Shown: positions 1-57,110 of the stretch, in pieces
Layout of the letters: each line of letters opens with the position of its first letter
Position numbering within the stretch: position 1 is the first letter of the stretch
Position numbers and translations under genes: made by a program
Notes under the pieces: model-generated
Database searches by the model: none
Told to the model about the DNA's origin: nothing
What the model saw: the letters and a program-made list of their open reading frames with translations, nothing else
Origin: Hoylesella shahii DSM 15611 = JCM 12083
GTDB lineage: Bacteria > Bacteroidota > Bacteroidia > Bacteroidales > Bacteroidaceae
Direction of reading: 5' to 3'
DNA length: 64,000 nucleotides
Assembly: GCF_000613445.1 (NCBI RefSeq)
Contig: NZ_BAIZ01000002.1
Coordinates: forward strand, 1 to 64,000

Positions 1-140
1 ATTTTGAGTAGGTTATTTTATGAGTTGATGAACTTGTGAGTTGATGAGTTTGCGAGTTAGTAAGTTGGTCAGTTGATGCCTTTGGTAGGTGTTGGGTTTT
101 AGCGAGTTTGCAAGCCAGTGAGTTGACTTGCCCTGCATTC
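1..140. repeat. Degenerate GAGTT/AAGTT low-complexity repeat
   Basis: A run of short words of the form GAGTTGATGAGTTTG, GAGTTAGTAAGTTGG and so on, spaced about 8 to 16 bases apart. The same repeat type reappears at 56886-57100 and, weakly, near 32725-32770. No open frame fits it. It lies downstream of clpB, beyond that gene's terminator. The left end of the repeat is cut by the window edge. Confidence 0.7.
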
Positions 141-255
141 CGCTCACTTTGTAGAAATACTAAAAGTCAAAACGACTTCATTGTGAATCTTAAGAATGTT
201 TCTTTATTCTGATGCATTGGAGCGGTTGTATGCTGTTTTTAGGAATACTTCTAAC

Positions 256-11169: not shown

Positions 11170-11248
11170 GAGGTGATTTAGACTTGCTTTTGATTTAAAA
11201 AAACTTTTCGTGGCGTTTCCTAATCCCACGAGTGAAACGGCACTTTTA

Positions 11249-11510
11249 AGAATGGGCAGGTCTTCTGACTTTGTTCTAATTCTCTTCGCCTTCCCGATTC
11301 GGTGCGCATACATGGCGCTGTTGTTCCGAAACAGTGGCACACGTTGTGGCGCGTATTTAAAAAAATCTGCATTGTTGCAGCACGTTTAGTTGCTTGTTAG
11401 CGCCCGTCTTTGGAAGAAAACCATAAAAAACTTACAGCTGCGGGACAGTCGAGGAATTGCACCCCGTTCCCTTTTAATTGCCTAGCGCGTTGCTATGGCA
11501 AACCAATTCT
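11249..11510 (-). ncRNA. Cobalamin (B12) riboswitch upstream of nrdAB
   Basis: Read on the minus strand, the element shows the core of the cobalamin aptamer. AGGGAACGGGGTGCAATTCC is followed by CGACTGTCCCGC and AGCTGTAAG, then after a variable arm AGTCAGAAGACCTGCC. Outer bases AGAATTGG (11503-11510) can pair with CCCATTCT (about 11250-11257) as P1. It starts just inside a TACCTTTG promoter box and ends about 80 bases before the nrdA start. Known B12 riboswitches repress when the cofactor is bound, so nrdAB should be off when B12 allows a class II reductase to work. Confidence 0.92.
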
Positions 11511-11514
11511 GCTA

Positions 11515-11522
11515 CAAAGGTA
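11515..11522 (-). promoter_or_regulatory. -7 box of the nrdAB promoter
   Basis: TACCTTTG on the minus strand lies directly before the 5' end of the riboswitch. A TTTC about 20 bases upstream may be the weak -33 element. Confidence 0.6.
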
Positions 11523-20112: not shown

Positions 20113-20152
20113 TTGTAAAATAAAAGGTGTAAAATTTAACATTATGAGTGCC
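20113..20152 (+). repeat. Dispersed leader element with start codon, copy A
   Basis: A 40-base stretch that starts TTGTAAAATA, has seven variable bases, then 23 bases ending in ATGAGTGCC. The same arrangement occurs on the minus strand at 38609-38648, with 33 of 40 bases identical. Downstream, CGGGCG recurs at the same distance (23 bases) in both. The frame opened here runs 83 codons into the 22-bp array and looks degenerate. Confidence 0.6.
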
Positions 20153-20331
20153 TTCTTTGCGCACGAAAGTTCACTCGGGCGCAAATTTTCGATTCTCGCG
20201 GAGGTTTGTTTGGATGCACAACAGACAAGGACAAGTGAATGTAGATGTCAACATGTTTTGTTGCGAAAACCGAAATTTGTGCGAGAAAATAAGCTTTTTA
20301 TAGGAAAAAACACTGCGTTTAGCACCAAAAC

Positions 20332-20441
20332 GCCTTGTAATATGCAGCTAAACGCAGTGCGTTTTGCTGCTAAATGCAGTGCGTTTTGCTGCTAAACGCA
20401 AGGTGAAATGGTGCAAAACGCAAGGTGAAATGATGCAAAAC
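20332..20441. repeat. 22-bp tandem repeat array A (five units)
   Basis: Five units of exactly 22 bases start at 20332, 20354, 20376, 20398 and 20420. Unit junctions carry the word GCWAAAYGC (GCTAAACGC, GCTAAATGC, GCAAAACGC), while the middle of each unit varies and is shared by neighbouring pairs. A partial further unit lies to the left. A sister array with the same period and junction word is at 38239-38370. Confidence 0.85.
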
Positions 20442-21227
20442 GCTGATTTTTGAGCTGCCGAAAATCTTACAAACAAGATGAGAATTACATCAGTTTGGTG
20501 TGAAAACGGCTAATTAATGTGGTATTTTAACCACTAAAAACCATTTTCCGGACGGTGAAAAATTGCTCGCACGGCACGAAATAGAAGTGCAAAAAGGTGC
20601 ATATTGCAGCAATAAGGCTGAAAAATAGTGTAAAATAAAAAGCTGAAGGACTAAAAAAGGTGCTAAAAGCATGTTGTATGGCATGTATTTACGCTAGAAT
20701 GGATTGATTTTGAAAGTAAATTTTGTAAAATAATAATACCAAAATTAACAAAAAAGGATAGAAGACATACTTGTAAGCGAAAAGCTAGGGTATAATGTAA
20801 GCATTAAACATAGCCCTATGGTGCAACATTTGTCAGGGTATTTGTGCAGTAGGGGTCTGGATTGATGGTTGAATACCTAGTATGATTTGCGCAATCCCCC
20901 TAGTAGAGTAGCGGTTAACGTGTAATAGAACTTAGTGTTGGTTTACTTCATGTACATAACCTTCCAATCTGTGGTGAGAGACGATTAGATATTGTGCATT
21001 GTTGAGCACATTGCGCGTGTTATCTGCGAGGGCGTAGTGGTTTAGGCCAAAAGAATAAGACAGGCAAGAAGCCGACAAACTAACCAAAGAGGGAGAAGTA
21101 ACAAAGATAACAATCTAAAGCAAATGATAAGCAGGCAGATCACCAATTGGGCTTAAACAGTATGCATCCCTGCATCTAAACCAAGAGAAGCCGAGGAGAG
21201 CCAAGCCCATAGTGCCAAGTACCAGAC

Positions 21228-32716: not shown

Positions 32717-32958
32717 TATCTGAGTTATTTAGTTTTTTAGTTCTTTAGTTTTTGAGTTGTGAGGGTTTAACGCATACAATGCTTTTCTTGCGCCACTTCT
32801 CAATGCAGTAAGTTGAAGCACTTGTTGTTTGCTGAACGCATAATGGGATTTAGACTTTCTCTTGCTTATCACCAATGCAGCTTCTAAAACTCATTGACTT
32901 GAAAATTGAAATGTTCACACACCCCTTAAACGAACAAACCTCATCCCACATAACCATC

Positions 32959-36529: not shown

Positions 36530-37484
36530 ATGGATAATTTAGGAGTTTATTTACTTGTTGCAGCCGTGGTGCTGGCACTTGTCTTCGTTAAAAAGGCACT
36601 TGTGATTATTCCCCAGTCGGAAACAAAAATCATTGAACGCTAGGTAAGTTTCATGCAATACTCAAGCCGGGTATCAACATCATTATTCCCTTTGTAGATA
36701 GCGCCAAAAGTATTGTACGAATGGTTAATCGTCGCTACCTCTATTCTAGCACAATCGACCTACGTGAGCAAGTTTACGACTTCGATAAGCAGAATGTTAT
36801 CACCAAGGATAACATCCAAATGCAAATCAATGCTCTGCTTTATTTCCAAATTGTCGACCCCTTTAAGGCGGTTTACGAAATTGATAACTTGCCCAACGCT
36901 ATTGAGAAGCTCACGCAAACAACATTGCGTAACATCATTGGTGAAATGGAATTAGACCAAACCCTCACCTCGCGCGATACCATCAACACCAAACTTCGCT
37001 CGGTGTTAGACGATGCCACCAATAAGTGGGGTATTAAGGTTAACCGCGTTGAGCTGCAAGACATCATCCCACCATCAAGCGTGTTGCAGGCGATGGAGAA
37101 ACAAATGCAGGCCGAACGTAATAAACGTGCCACTATTCTTACCAGTGAGGGTGAGAAACAAGCCGTGATTTTGCAGTCGGAAGGTGAGAAAACCTCTACC
37201 ATTAACCGCGCTGAAGCGGCCAAACAGCAGGCCATTCTCTTTGCCGAAGGTGAGGCACAGGCACGCATACGCAAGGCCGAGGCCGAGCTATTGCCATTCA
37301 AAAGATTACAGAAGCGGTGGGTACTAGCACCAATCCTGCCAACTATCTGCTCGCACAGAAATACATTGCCATGATGCAAGACTTGGCACAGGGCGACCAA
37401 ACCAAGACGGTTTACCTGCCTTACGAGGCTACCAACCTACTGGGTAGCATTGGTGGAATTAAAGATTTGTTTAAGATGCCCTAA
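36530..37484 (+). pseudogene. SPFH/stomatin-like protein (QmcA type), two frameshifts
   Basis: About 318 residues after correction. An N-terminal membrane helix (VYLLVAAVVLALVFV) is followed by the SPFH domain (KPGINIIIPFVDSAKSIV to LQDIIPPSSVLQAM) and an Ala/Glu-rich coiled coil (AERNKRATILTSEGEKQ to AEGEAQARIRKAEAE). The C-terminus (ITEAVGTSTNPANYLLAQKY to IKDLFKMP) is typical. One-base deletions at about 36641 (IIERLGKFH, read as a stop) and about 37291 (AEAEL to AIQKITEAVG) break it. These proteins oligomerise into inner-membrane scaffolds with NfeD partners. Both members of the pair being broken is odd and is discussed as a finding. Confidence 0.85.
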
Positions 37485-37858: not shown

Positions 37859-38238
37859 ATGCTGTTCTTTCTTGTGCTTGTATATCACCTCAACCATCAC
37901 ATGGTGCCGACTTTGTGGGCTGTTGCATGGTTAATGCGGGGAAAAGGCTAAGTACGATGTGTTAAATGGGTAAATATATTTTACAAAGTACACTGTTCGA
38001 TCCGACGCATTCTAGACGAAAATTTCTTCAAAATGGCGAAAATATTCGCCGTCTTGTGCTAACGAACAGCGAGCGAAAGCGCGTTTTATTTCCTTTTTCT
38101 GCTATTTAACATGTTTTTGTGCTCCTTTTTGAAGAATAATTGTGCCAATTTTGCGTTCTACGCGATAAGAAAAGGTGGCAAAAATGTTGAATTTGGCAAG
38201 ACGTTCTGCATAAATTCAACAGCTTTTTGCATGAACAC

Positions 38239-38370
38239 GAACGGCTATTTGCTGCAAAACGCGATGTAATCTCCTACAAAATGCAATGCTAACTCGTGCT
38301 AAACGCAATGCTAACTCGTGCTAAATGCAATGCTAACTCGTGCTAAATGCAATGCTATCTCATGCAAAAC
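38239..38370. repeat. 22-bp tandem repeat array B (six units)
   Basis: Units of exactly 22 bases start at 38239, 38261, 38283, 38305, 38327 and 38349. Three central units are identical except for one base. Every junction after the first carries GCWAAAYGC (GCAAAACGC, GCTAAACGC, GCTAAATGC) or a close form. It has the same period and junction word as the array at 20332-20441, with different inner sequence. Confidence 0.87.
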
Positions 38371-38515
38371 GCAGTAAATACGCTAAAAAGTAGTGTACAA
38401 ATGATTATAAGTGGCCATTTTTTCAAGTTATCAACGAAAAATGTTTTAGTGGATAGTGATTTCCGTTTTTTATGCAACGCGTTGCTATATTTATGCCAAT
38501 TAAGGCTGTTTTTTA

Positions 38516-38617
38516 CTATTTTTCAGGTAAGATGCTGTAAATCAGGTGATTGAAACCTCTTAAAATACGCCAGAAAATACGCCCGATGCCCAAATCTTTT
38601 AGGGAGATGGCACTCAT
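38516..38617 (-). CDS. Possible 33-residue peptide gene
   Basis: A short frame with a start codon set in the dispersed leader element (copy B). The peptide begins MSAISLKDLGIGRIFWRILR and ends in SILPEK. It is amphipathic, with an aromatic and basic centre. The copy A frame at 20144 starts with the same three residues and keeps a GRxF pattern at a similar place, so the two may be relatives, A being decayed. The frame also extends upstream as a 108-codon frame, but the upstream part looks non-coding. Support is the shared leader only. Confidence 0.35.
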   Translation of the reverse strand: MSAISLKDLGIGRIFWRILRGFNHLIYSILPEK

Positions 38618-38648
38618 AATGTTAAATTTTAGTGTAAATATTTTACAA
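38609..38648 (-). repeat. Dispersed leader element with start codon, copy B
   Basis: The minus-strand match to 20113-20152: TTGTAAAATA, seven variable bases, then 23 identical bases ending in ATGAGTGCC. Confidence 0.6.
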
Positions 38649-38666
38649 ATTTGCTGATAGTATGGC

Positions 38667-38690
38667 TCGAACCCCAATCGGTGATAATAG
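38667..38690. repeat. Lone end of the foldback element
   Basis: AACCCCAATCGGTGATAATA resembles the terminal repeat of the element at 37660-37858, read from its right end. No second end is visible nearby. Confidence 0.5.
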
Positions 38691-38823
38691 AACAGCAAAC
38701 GTGCAGAAATCGGCGTAACAGGCGATGGTGGCTTAAGCATATAGTAGGCCATGGCATCCAAAATCAAACATAAGCAGCACGACTCAAACACCCACAAAGG
38801 AGAAATGCAGCGCAAAAAATAAA

Positions 38824-38930: not shown

Positions 38931-39845
38931 TTATTTCACAACACCGATAATCTCTTTCACGTCTTTCACGCCATGGTTATCCAGCCATTCGTTAATGCCG
39001 TCGCGCACCTTAATAGTGACAGTGGGGTCGAGGAAGTTGGCCGTTCCAATCTGGATGGCCGATGCACCAGCCATAAGAAACTCGATGGCATCGGTGGCAT
39101 TGCATATTCCACCCAAGCCGATGAGGGGTATTTTTACCGCCTTTGCCACCTGCCACACCATGCGCAAGGCCACCGGTTTAACCGCAGGGCCACTTAATCC
39201 GCCCGTGTTAATGCTTAAAAGCGATTGCCTTCGTTCAATGTCGATGGCCATACCCATGAGAGTATTGATGAGCGAAACACTGTCGGCCCCTTCAGCTTCC
39301 ACGGCTTTAGCAATCTCAGCAATGTCGGTAACATTGGGCGAAAGCTTCACGATGAGCGTTTTGTTATAACGTTGGCGCACCGCCTTCACCACGCTTGCAG
39401 CGCCAGCGCAGGTAGTACCAAAGGCCATACCGCCCTCTTTAACGTTAGGACACGAGATGTTAAGTTCGATGGCAGGAATATTTTCCAAGGCGTTTATCCG
39501 TGAAGCACATTCCGCATAGTCTTCGGGCGTGTTGCCACTCACATTCACAATCATGCGCGAGTTCACGTCCTTGATTTTAGGATAGATGTGTTGGGCGAAA
39601 TAGTCCACGCCTTTATTTTGCAATCCCACGCAGTTGAGCATACCTTGTGGCGTTTCGGCCATGCGTGGATAGTCGTTTCCCTCGCGAGGATGCAGCGTGG
39701 TACCTTTCACAATGATGCCACCAATGCCGCTTAGAGGTACGAAATCTTCGAACTCCAAGCCATAACCAAATGTGCCCGAAGCCGTCATCACGGGGTTTTT
39801 CATCGACATGTTGCCGATATTCGTAGTAAGAATGGCCATTACCAA
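38931..39845 (-). CDS. pyrD: Dihydroorotate dehydrogenase B, catalytic subunit
   Basis: 304 residues. An FMN enzyme that oxidises dihydroorotate to orotate in pyrimidine synthesis; class 1B uses NAD through PyrK. The FMN barrel shows [12 protein letters not shown] near 20, the orotate loop [18 protein letters not shown] (about 128-145) with the likely catalytic Cys, KLSPNVTDI, and phosphate-binding [20 protein letters not shown] near 245-265. The gene overlaps pyrK by seven bases, confirming the two-subunit form. Confidence 0.95.
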
Positions 39846-56202: not shown

Positions 56203-56889
56203 ATGAACAACAAGGATAATCAAGTGAGTGTGCTGTTCATGCTTTTCAGCATACTCTTTTGCGTTTGCTTGATAGCGGCAAACGTGTTAGAAACAAAGCA
56301 AATAGCGTTTGGTTCAATCAGTTTGACAGGTGGATTAATTGTATTCCCTGTGTCGTACATCATCAACGATTGTGTATGCGAGGTTTGGGGATACAAAAAA
56401 ACGCGCATGTTGATATGGATTGGCTTTGCATGAACTTCTTTTTCGTGACTCTTGGAGCCATCTGCGACGTGATACCTGGTGCACCTTACTGGACCAATAA
56501 TGATGGGTTTCATCAGATTTTTGGCCTCGCGCCACGCATAGCGTTCGCTTCTTTCCTCGCATTCATTTGTGGCTCGTTTGTTAATGCTTATATAATGAGC
56601 AAGATGAAACTGTCGTCGGGTGGTAAAAACTTCTCGTTGCGCGCTGTGGTTAGCACTATTTTCGGCGAGTCGGTAGATCAATCATCTTTTTCCCCTTGGC
56701 ATTGTGGGGTGTTGTTCCCACCGAAGAATTGCTTGGTTGATGCTTTGGCAGGTGATTTTGAAAACCGCTTACGAGATTGTTGCATTGCCTTTGACCATTC
56801 GTTTGGTGCGTTATGTAAAGCAACACGAGAAGGTTGATACTTACGACAACGATGTAAACTATAGCATTTGGCGTGTGTTGAGTATATAG
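56203..56889 (+). pseudogene. yhhQ: Queuosine precursor transporter YhhQ, three frameshifts
   Basis: About 229 residues after correction. A six-helix membrane protein of the VUT family (COG1738) that imports queuosine precursors such as preQ0 or preQ1. Hydrophobic segments run FMLFSILFCVCLIAANVL, GGLIVFPVSYIINDCVCEVW, NFFFVTLGAICDVIPGAP, ASFLAFICGSFVNAYIMSK and then IFFPLALWGVV and LPLTIRLVRYVKQ near the end. One-base deletions at about 56430 (GFA to MNFF), 56683 and 56735 break it into four frames. The partner queF follows after a repeat-filled gap, which supports the assignment. The damage could be consensus error. Confidence 0.82.
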
Positions 56890-57110
56890 TTTGTGAGTTG
56901 ATGAGTTTATAAGTTGGTGAGTTTTTGAGTTGATTAGTTTGTGAGTTAATGAGTTGATGAGTTTATAAGTTGGTGTGTTTTTGAGTTGATTAGTTTGTGA
57001 GTTAATGAGTTAATGAGTTTTTAAGTTGATAAGTTTTTGAGTTGAGTAGTTTGTGAGTTAATGAGTTAATGAGTTTTTAAGTTGATAAGCTTTTGGACTT
57101 TTAGCTTATG
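56886..57110. repeat. GAGTT/AAGTT degenerate repeat between yhhQ and queF
   Basis: At least fifteen words of the form GAGTT or AAGTT with phrase-like longer repeats (TTTGTGAGTTAATGAGTT recurs three times). It is of the same type as the repeat at 1-140. No gene fits. Confidence 0.8.

Follow-up and report, generated by a model that had tools for sequence, protein, structure and literature searches.

BrickBuilt is a MITE of Porphyromonas gingivalis, built on a 23-nt unit (AGAYCATARTATCCTCTCRTRTG), ending in the terminal inverted repeat (TIR) GAGACC and represented by 19 elements, according to the part of its description available to us (PMC4596501). PINSR is a 188-bp intergenic repeat of Prevotella intermedia, present in 177-184 copies and found in one Prevotella clade, again according to the part available (PMC4755523). 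These are the closest described systems to the repeats discussed here, which centre on a 22-bp tandem array, ‘array B’, in Hoylesella shahii. As far as the accessible part of PMC4596501 goes, the elements that carry such arrays resemble BrickBuilt in being intergenic, in running leader–tandem repeat–tail, in having IS5-family-like ends, and in occurring in several copies per genome. They differ in the unit (22 bp and of other sequence, against 23 nt), in the ends (GAAGTCGTCTTGACTTTT here, GAGACCTTTGCA in BrickBuilt), in number (81 left ends in one genome and 152 in another, against 19 elements), and in existing also as a ‘box-ended’ form without inverted repeats. Neither the BrickBuilt unit nor its GAGACC terminus, as given there, is matched by the unit or ends here, and identity with it was rejected. 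PINSR shows that an intergenic repeat limited to one Prevotella clade can reach a high copy number; it differs in being 188 bp long, and the part of PMC4755523 available to us mentions neither array nor inverted repeat, the comparison being one of descriptions rather than of sequences. The third point of reference is the IS5-family insertion sequences (IS). These are the source of the ends of a longer form of the element and of the transposase start in its left arm, and stop-free transposase genes occur in the same genomes; they differ in possessing a complete transposase (DUF4096 + DDE), most of which the long form lacks. In the open-access literature searched, no description of this element was found among the matches listed.

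Array B is very probably the central minisatellite of an old copy of a dispersed, non-coding, intergenic family, the core of which has spread in Prevotella conceptionensis as an IS5-derived MITE. This reading draws on the dispersal, anatomy and subfamilies of the family, and on the inverted repeats, target duplications and related transposase genes documented below.

Array B and the element around it

The principal features of the window—the whole stretch of 64,000 nucleotides that was analysed—are these:

38253..38373, + strand: array B, the 11-bp word TGCwAAAyGCA six times, once every 22 bp (TRF, shuffle test, word scan)
37960..38649, - strand: whole element B, subfamily II, between two end boxes (element-profile end matches, alignment, box positions, subfamily II score)
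38620..38649, - strand: end box on the left of element B, its inner side overlapped by TTTAACATTATGAGTGCC (38609-38626)
37960..37987, - strand: right end box of element B, in the same orientation as the left box (profile match, alignment)
38169..38375, + strand: central block of element B (part of the leader, plus the array), turned round with respect to the element's ends (133 bits to positions 124-332 of the subfamily I profile)
20113..20750, + strand: element around array A, subfamily I, box-ended (profile 15-660, 388.9 bits)
20346..20444, + strand: array A, five words at 22-bp spacing (TRF, word scan)
139..179, - strand: IS5-type TIR at the start of the contig (TIR profile match)
21-58: octamer repeat of the TGAGTTGA type, inward of the TIR at 139-179 (TRF)
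36721..37374, + strand: SPFH/Band 7 protein gene, left of element B (PF01145, 1.6e-33)
38931..39845, - strand: dihydroorotate dehydrogenase gene, right of element B (PF01180, 1.6e-82)
11238-11522: cobalamin riboswitch (Rfam RF00174, 76.4 bits), a side observation

An earlier note on this DNA described array B as six units of 22 bases at 38239-38370. Number and period are borne out by TRF, by a shuffle test and by a word scan, and the array is above chance; its extent, 38253-38373, is a few bases off that given. TRF places it from 38253 or 38255 to 38373, with a period of 22 (score 110) or 44 (score 163). The unit TGCNAAACGCANTGCTANCTCGTGC, allowing up to three mismatches, has four matches in the window, all within array B, and none in 100 dinucleotide shuffles. 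Read as 11-bp halves, the array consists of the word TGCwAAAyGCA repeated six times (up to two mismatches each) at a spacing of exactly 22 bp, alternating with a spacer that is mostly ATGCTAACTCG. Three unchanged copies of this spacer stand mid-array, and correspond to the three central units described as nearly identical. Array A has the same period and word with different unit bodies, as the earlier note had it, its five words being separated by spacers GTGCGTTTTGC and AGGTGAAATGG/A; it lies 17.8 kb from array B, in keeping with the 18 kb estimated. A/T-rich triplets recur every 11 bp, not every 22: mean power in 20 arrays of at least five words each is 3.47 at 11 bp and 0.27 at 22 bp, against 0.37 and 0.44, respectively, in shuffles. 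Arrays are read in both directions at one sampled locus (L058). A CRISPR was considered and rejected; it would need long identical repeats and unique spacers, and the 11-bp spacers here recur within and between arrays.

Element B was delimited by two - strand matches to the ends of the element profile, at 38655-38604 (E 1.2e-6) and 38023-37959 (E 2.9e-4), and by alignment with 10 candidate copies; its subfamily II score is that of a copy included in the training set of that profile. The intergenic region in which it lies is convergent. The TIR profile finds nothing near 37960-38649 (E up to 0.01), the sole match in the window being that at 139-179, which is probably the right end of a long-form copy broken by the end of the contig. 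Octamer arrays of the TGAGTTTA/TGAGTTGA type occur also at 56879-57095 and 32721-32758, and resemble the octamers of the long form's right arm; neither has a TIR-profile match nearby.

A dispersed family with two subfamilies

The earlier note placed array B in an ‘island’, and this does not hold. The two-word pattern occurs at 569 places in the H. shahii genome with up to two mismatches (315 on the + strand, 254 on the - strand; reversed control, 1), and at 171 in its exact form (control, 0). The left-end motif, with up to one mismatch, occurs 81 times in this genome and 152 times in P. conceptionensis 9403948 (G656), with no control matches in either. Within an 836-kb sample—the window plus 40 stretches of this genome, biased in that 20 lie for the most part within the opening 60 kb of large contigs and 20 are from contigs with known exact matches—there are 43 array calls of two or more words, at 39 places after neighbours are merged, and none in the reversed sequence. 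Alignment of 13 chosen arrays with 900 bp on either side revealed common sequence extending far past the array, and a profile of this common sequence finds full and partial copies throughout the sample. The core element is non-coding, about 650 bp long, and comprises an end box, a leader, the 22-bp array (of 2 to 7 words in H. shahii), a tail and a second end box. In box-ended copies the same box of about 28 bp, TTGTAAAATA..TAC..TTTAACA, occurs at both ends in direct orientation; of the 27 full H. shahii copies examined, 21 have a match to the left box, always over 28 bp, and 26 have one to the right box, over 27 bp in 21 of them. Solo boxes as scars of recombination were looked for and rejected: 63 of 83 box matches are at elements, and the 20 elsewhere, against 30 in reversed sequence, represent no excess. 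By the gene calls of a simple dicodon script, no element centre lies within a gene in this genome (0/41) or in G656 (0/36).

The two subfamilies have boxes and array in common; array A belongs to subfamily I, and array B to subfamily II. Subfamily II includes copies, that of array B and several others, in which the central block with its array is turned round relative to the ends. When the eleven candidates for an inverted centre, array B's copy included, were aligned, most proved to have leader and tail sequences of their own; two were later scored differently, L081 as subfamily I and L089 as unclear. The sample of this genome yields 30 copies of subfamily I, 14 of II, 2 unclear and 2 weak, or 29 and 13 once one copy of each subfamily, cut by stretch borders and counted twice (L059/L060 and L078/L079), is allowed for; that of G656 yields 36, 1 and 1 weak. 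The subfamily II profile was trained on array B's copy and six others, which match it by construction; copies outside the training set are L068 6437, L073 11618, L074 4130, L078 19776, L079 92, L080 10434 and L088 9476. The first explanation of the word that arrays A and B share is that both are the centres of copies of one dispersed family. They are related without being recent simple duplications of one another, as the earlier note held; being copies of one family, they also come close to the derivation from one copied segment that it had set against its own reading.

Among 398 genomes of the genus sampled, the closest by the array B locus are G656 (89%, adjoining gene) and G236 (85-86%). 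Array matches number 1237 in G656 (control 1), 22 in G236 (control 3) and 1 to 3 in each of three other relatives (control 0), and the sampled G236 sequence includes three full copies. At the region orthologous to array B, G656 has an element with its ends in opposite orientation, and only the array and short stretches align between the flanking genes, which are 84-88% identical across this comparison. The element profile has no match at that region in G236; repeats of the type TTGTTCCAGATGATATGGAA stand in place of the element there (L110). At the array A locus, a HutD-family gene is followed by an element in G656 too, again in opposite orientation, and the gene on the far side differs. Judging from these alignments, the elements at the two loci are independent insertions or inversions rather than a conserved feature.

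Fifty-five of 60 genus genomes sampled have no array match at up to one mismatch. In genomes beyond the clade, forward matches barely outnumber those of the reversed control, G058 (18 vs 0) being the exception. G058 has 22-bp arrays of its own, three loci of which (from the set L032, L035, L038 and L040-L048) read as alternating GCGAAACG and CGTTTCGC-like halves; its 3-kb loci have no match to the element profile. A scan of a sequence collection with the array B unit, possibly exclusive of its own and very near genomes, found none. The same scan with the left end found at least 83 stretches, mostly of P. conceptionensis among the matches listed; of the 15 loci of other organisms among those matches, only two, from Hoylesella loescheii, match the element, with weak scores (27.5 and 28.9 bits) and at its left end.

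The long form and an IS5-type transposase

In the best-matching copies of G656 and G236, similarity spans about 1.22 kb and ends at inverted repeats of about 75 bp that start GAAGTCGTCTTGACTTTTAAT. In G656, this ‘long form’ has the core element embedded within it. Identical 3-bp flanks are present in 9 of 21 pairs of long-form ends and absent from 12, against 1.35 expected from mismatched pairs, and duplications of 4 or 5 bp occur in none of the 21; the set is of distinct pairs that span 700-1700 bp and have flanks free of N, two of them with their right end in common, and a few of its right ends were extrapolated from partial matches. The long form lacks most of a transposase gene, the longest open frame being 85-141 codons in 24 pairs, and its left arm encodes the start of a transposase of the IS5 type.

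The end sequence, with up to two mismatches, is present in 9 of the 398 genus genomes sampled, among them this genome, G656 and G236. In two others, G151 and G115, it marks one side of an IS of about 0.9 kb, the other end of which fits with five mismatches; the transposase of this IS matches PF13340 (DUF4096, IS4/5 family) and DDE domains. G656 has three long relatives of the transposase, 65-69% identical, two of them stop-free (residues 2-279) and one with a stop, and this genome has one that is open over residues 19-279 (68%), plus several pieces. Most of the 58 transposase matches in G656 are fragments, mainly of residues ~2-60 with few C-terminal, and because at least ten of these fragments adjoin placed element cores, the left arm of the long form derives from the gene for the transposase. 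The TIR profile matches the left ends of IS copies strongly (68.7 bits for one copy in G656, 68.2 bits for one in this genome), and their right ends over only about 18 positions and weakly (2-6 bits); the long end is thus on both sides in the long form, and on one side in the IS. Single IS5-type TIRs were observed also at L146 16452 and L160 19951, in both G656 and G236, beside the stop of an orthologous gene, the product of which we take to be an NAD synthetase.

The long form of G656 and G236 accordingly has terminal inverted repeats, a target duplication, a related autonomous IS and no complete transposase of its own, as a MITE does. The label extends to the long form only, because array B's copy has no TIR and no consistent target duplication is seen in 16 box-ended copies of this genome with both boxes (a set that does not include array B's copy). 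The copy that holds array B is classed as a related form with box ends. The long form is very probably a deletion derivative of an IS5-family element that carries the core, as its long inverted repeats, transposase start and 3-bp target duplications suggest, and probably spread in P. conceptionensis by the action, in trans, of an IS5-type transposase. The box-ended form may once have been mobile itself, with the array travelling inside it and its units made alike by slippage or conversion.

Age, constraint and competing explanations

Best pair identity among the full copies sampled is 80.8% in this genome and 90.2% in G656; because of the low figure, the copies in this genome are judged to be older, with no recent movement visible. 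They lie preferentially between convergent genes, where 15 of 61 regions are occupied, compared with 17 of the 395 regions of other kinds (p=1.5e-6); in G656, where the stretches were chosen around elements, the figures are 5 of 26 and 28 of 184 (p=0.57). The preference of old copies may reflect the loss, over time, of harmful insertions.

Homogenisation within arrays, proposed in the earlier note, holds for this genome, where spacer likeness is 0.654 within and 0.501 between arrays, a value reached in 0 of 200 permutations (34 arrays). It is absent in G656, where 110 (word) and 161 (spacer) of 200 permutations reach the observed values. The companion proposal was of selection on the word. Since a word scan favours conserved words, conservation was assessed in arrays relocated by their leader sequence; indels depress the leader's own score at fixed offset (0.37 bits in this genome, 0.82 in G656), which was left aside. 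So anchored, the 26 old copies of this genome, which are those of the subfamily I profile and do not include array B's, keep the word better (0.89-1.15 bits) than the spacer (0.56-0.93), but in the 34 younger copies of G656 the two are about equal (0.97-1.23 and 0.89-1.18). Constraint on the word in old copies is possible, although descent is the first explanation; descent, exchange of spacer types and constraint remain mixed contributions.

That the arrays are a platform used by the host, kept for chromosome or transcription control because a nucleoid or regulatory protein binds the phased 11-bp word, is an unlikely reading. Points in its favour are the A/T-triplet periodicity, about 9 times that of shuffles, the better-kept word of the old copies and their concentration between convergent genes. 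The younger copies of G656 lack the convergent preference, however, which fits the removal of harmful insertions with time; G236 manages with few arrays and few copies; and most of the 60 genus genomes sampled have no match. Nor is the local DNA structure that the earlier note proposed to check a property of both arrays: by a wedge model, array A is predicted to be curved (z 3.1) and array B is not (z -0.7). Curvature as a general property was rejected on the same ground, for 18 of 20 arrays exceed their shuffles (mean 0.88 vs 0.53 deg/bp), yet array B does not (0.38 vs 0.54). A structured RNA or a transcript terminator is very unlikely: array A has more stable predicted folds than its shuffles (z -1.9 and -3.0), but array B does not on either strand (z +0.4), no Rfam family reaches cut-off in 37900-38700 (one sub-threshold match, E=0.37), and promoter and terminator scans are at chance level, the promoter models being exclusive of the Bacteroidota type. 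We consider it doubtful that the box-ended core is a separate mobile or host-kept DNA that spread a second time by riding in an IS5-type MITE; such a core would be gene-free, without TIR or target duplication, with quasi-palindromic direct boxes of ~28 bp, a phased 11-bp array preserved by selection, and two orientations of the central block.

The arrays had been called ‘iteron-like’, and 22 bp is a repeat size known for iterons. Direct repeats of that length apart, little recommends array B as iterons, whether of a second origin or of a plasmid that has integrated, and we regard this as extremely improbable: units number in the hundreds across the genome, no replication protein occurs among nine neighbouring genes (Pfam; two of the nine matched no family), and in G656 the same core is embedded in a transposable element. 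A polar sequence, oriented by replichore like those that guide segregation, is almost certainly wrong. Among the matches listed, two G656 contigs have arrays on the + strand only, but stretches of those same contigs carry both orientations, array and element together, which refutes replichore polarity, and G656 left ends are split 78 + to 74 -.

Array B is most likely, then, a genomic passenger rather than an origin of replication, and most likely has no role for the host. At most the array is of use to the element itself, as a helically phased stretch for protein binding or packaging might be; a protein-binding role is possible. What was a puzzling array would be explained by membership of a family that takes up much of the large intergenic space in the stretches of this genome that were sampled. 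With BrickBuilt, Bacteroidales would now have two independent cases of an IS5-derived MITE around a 22-23-bp minisatellite, and a candidate for the mobilising transposase can now be named, which makes the idea of mobilisation in trans testable.
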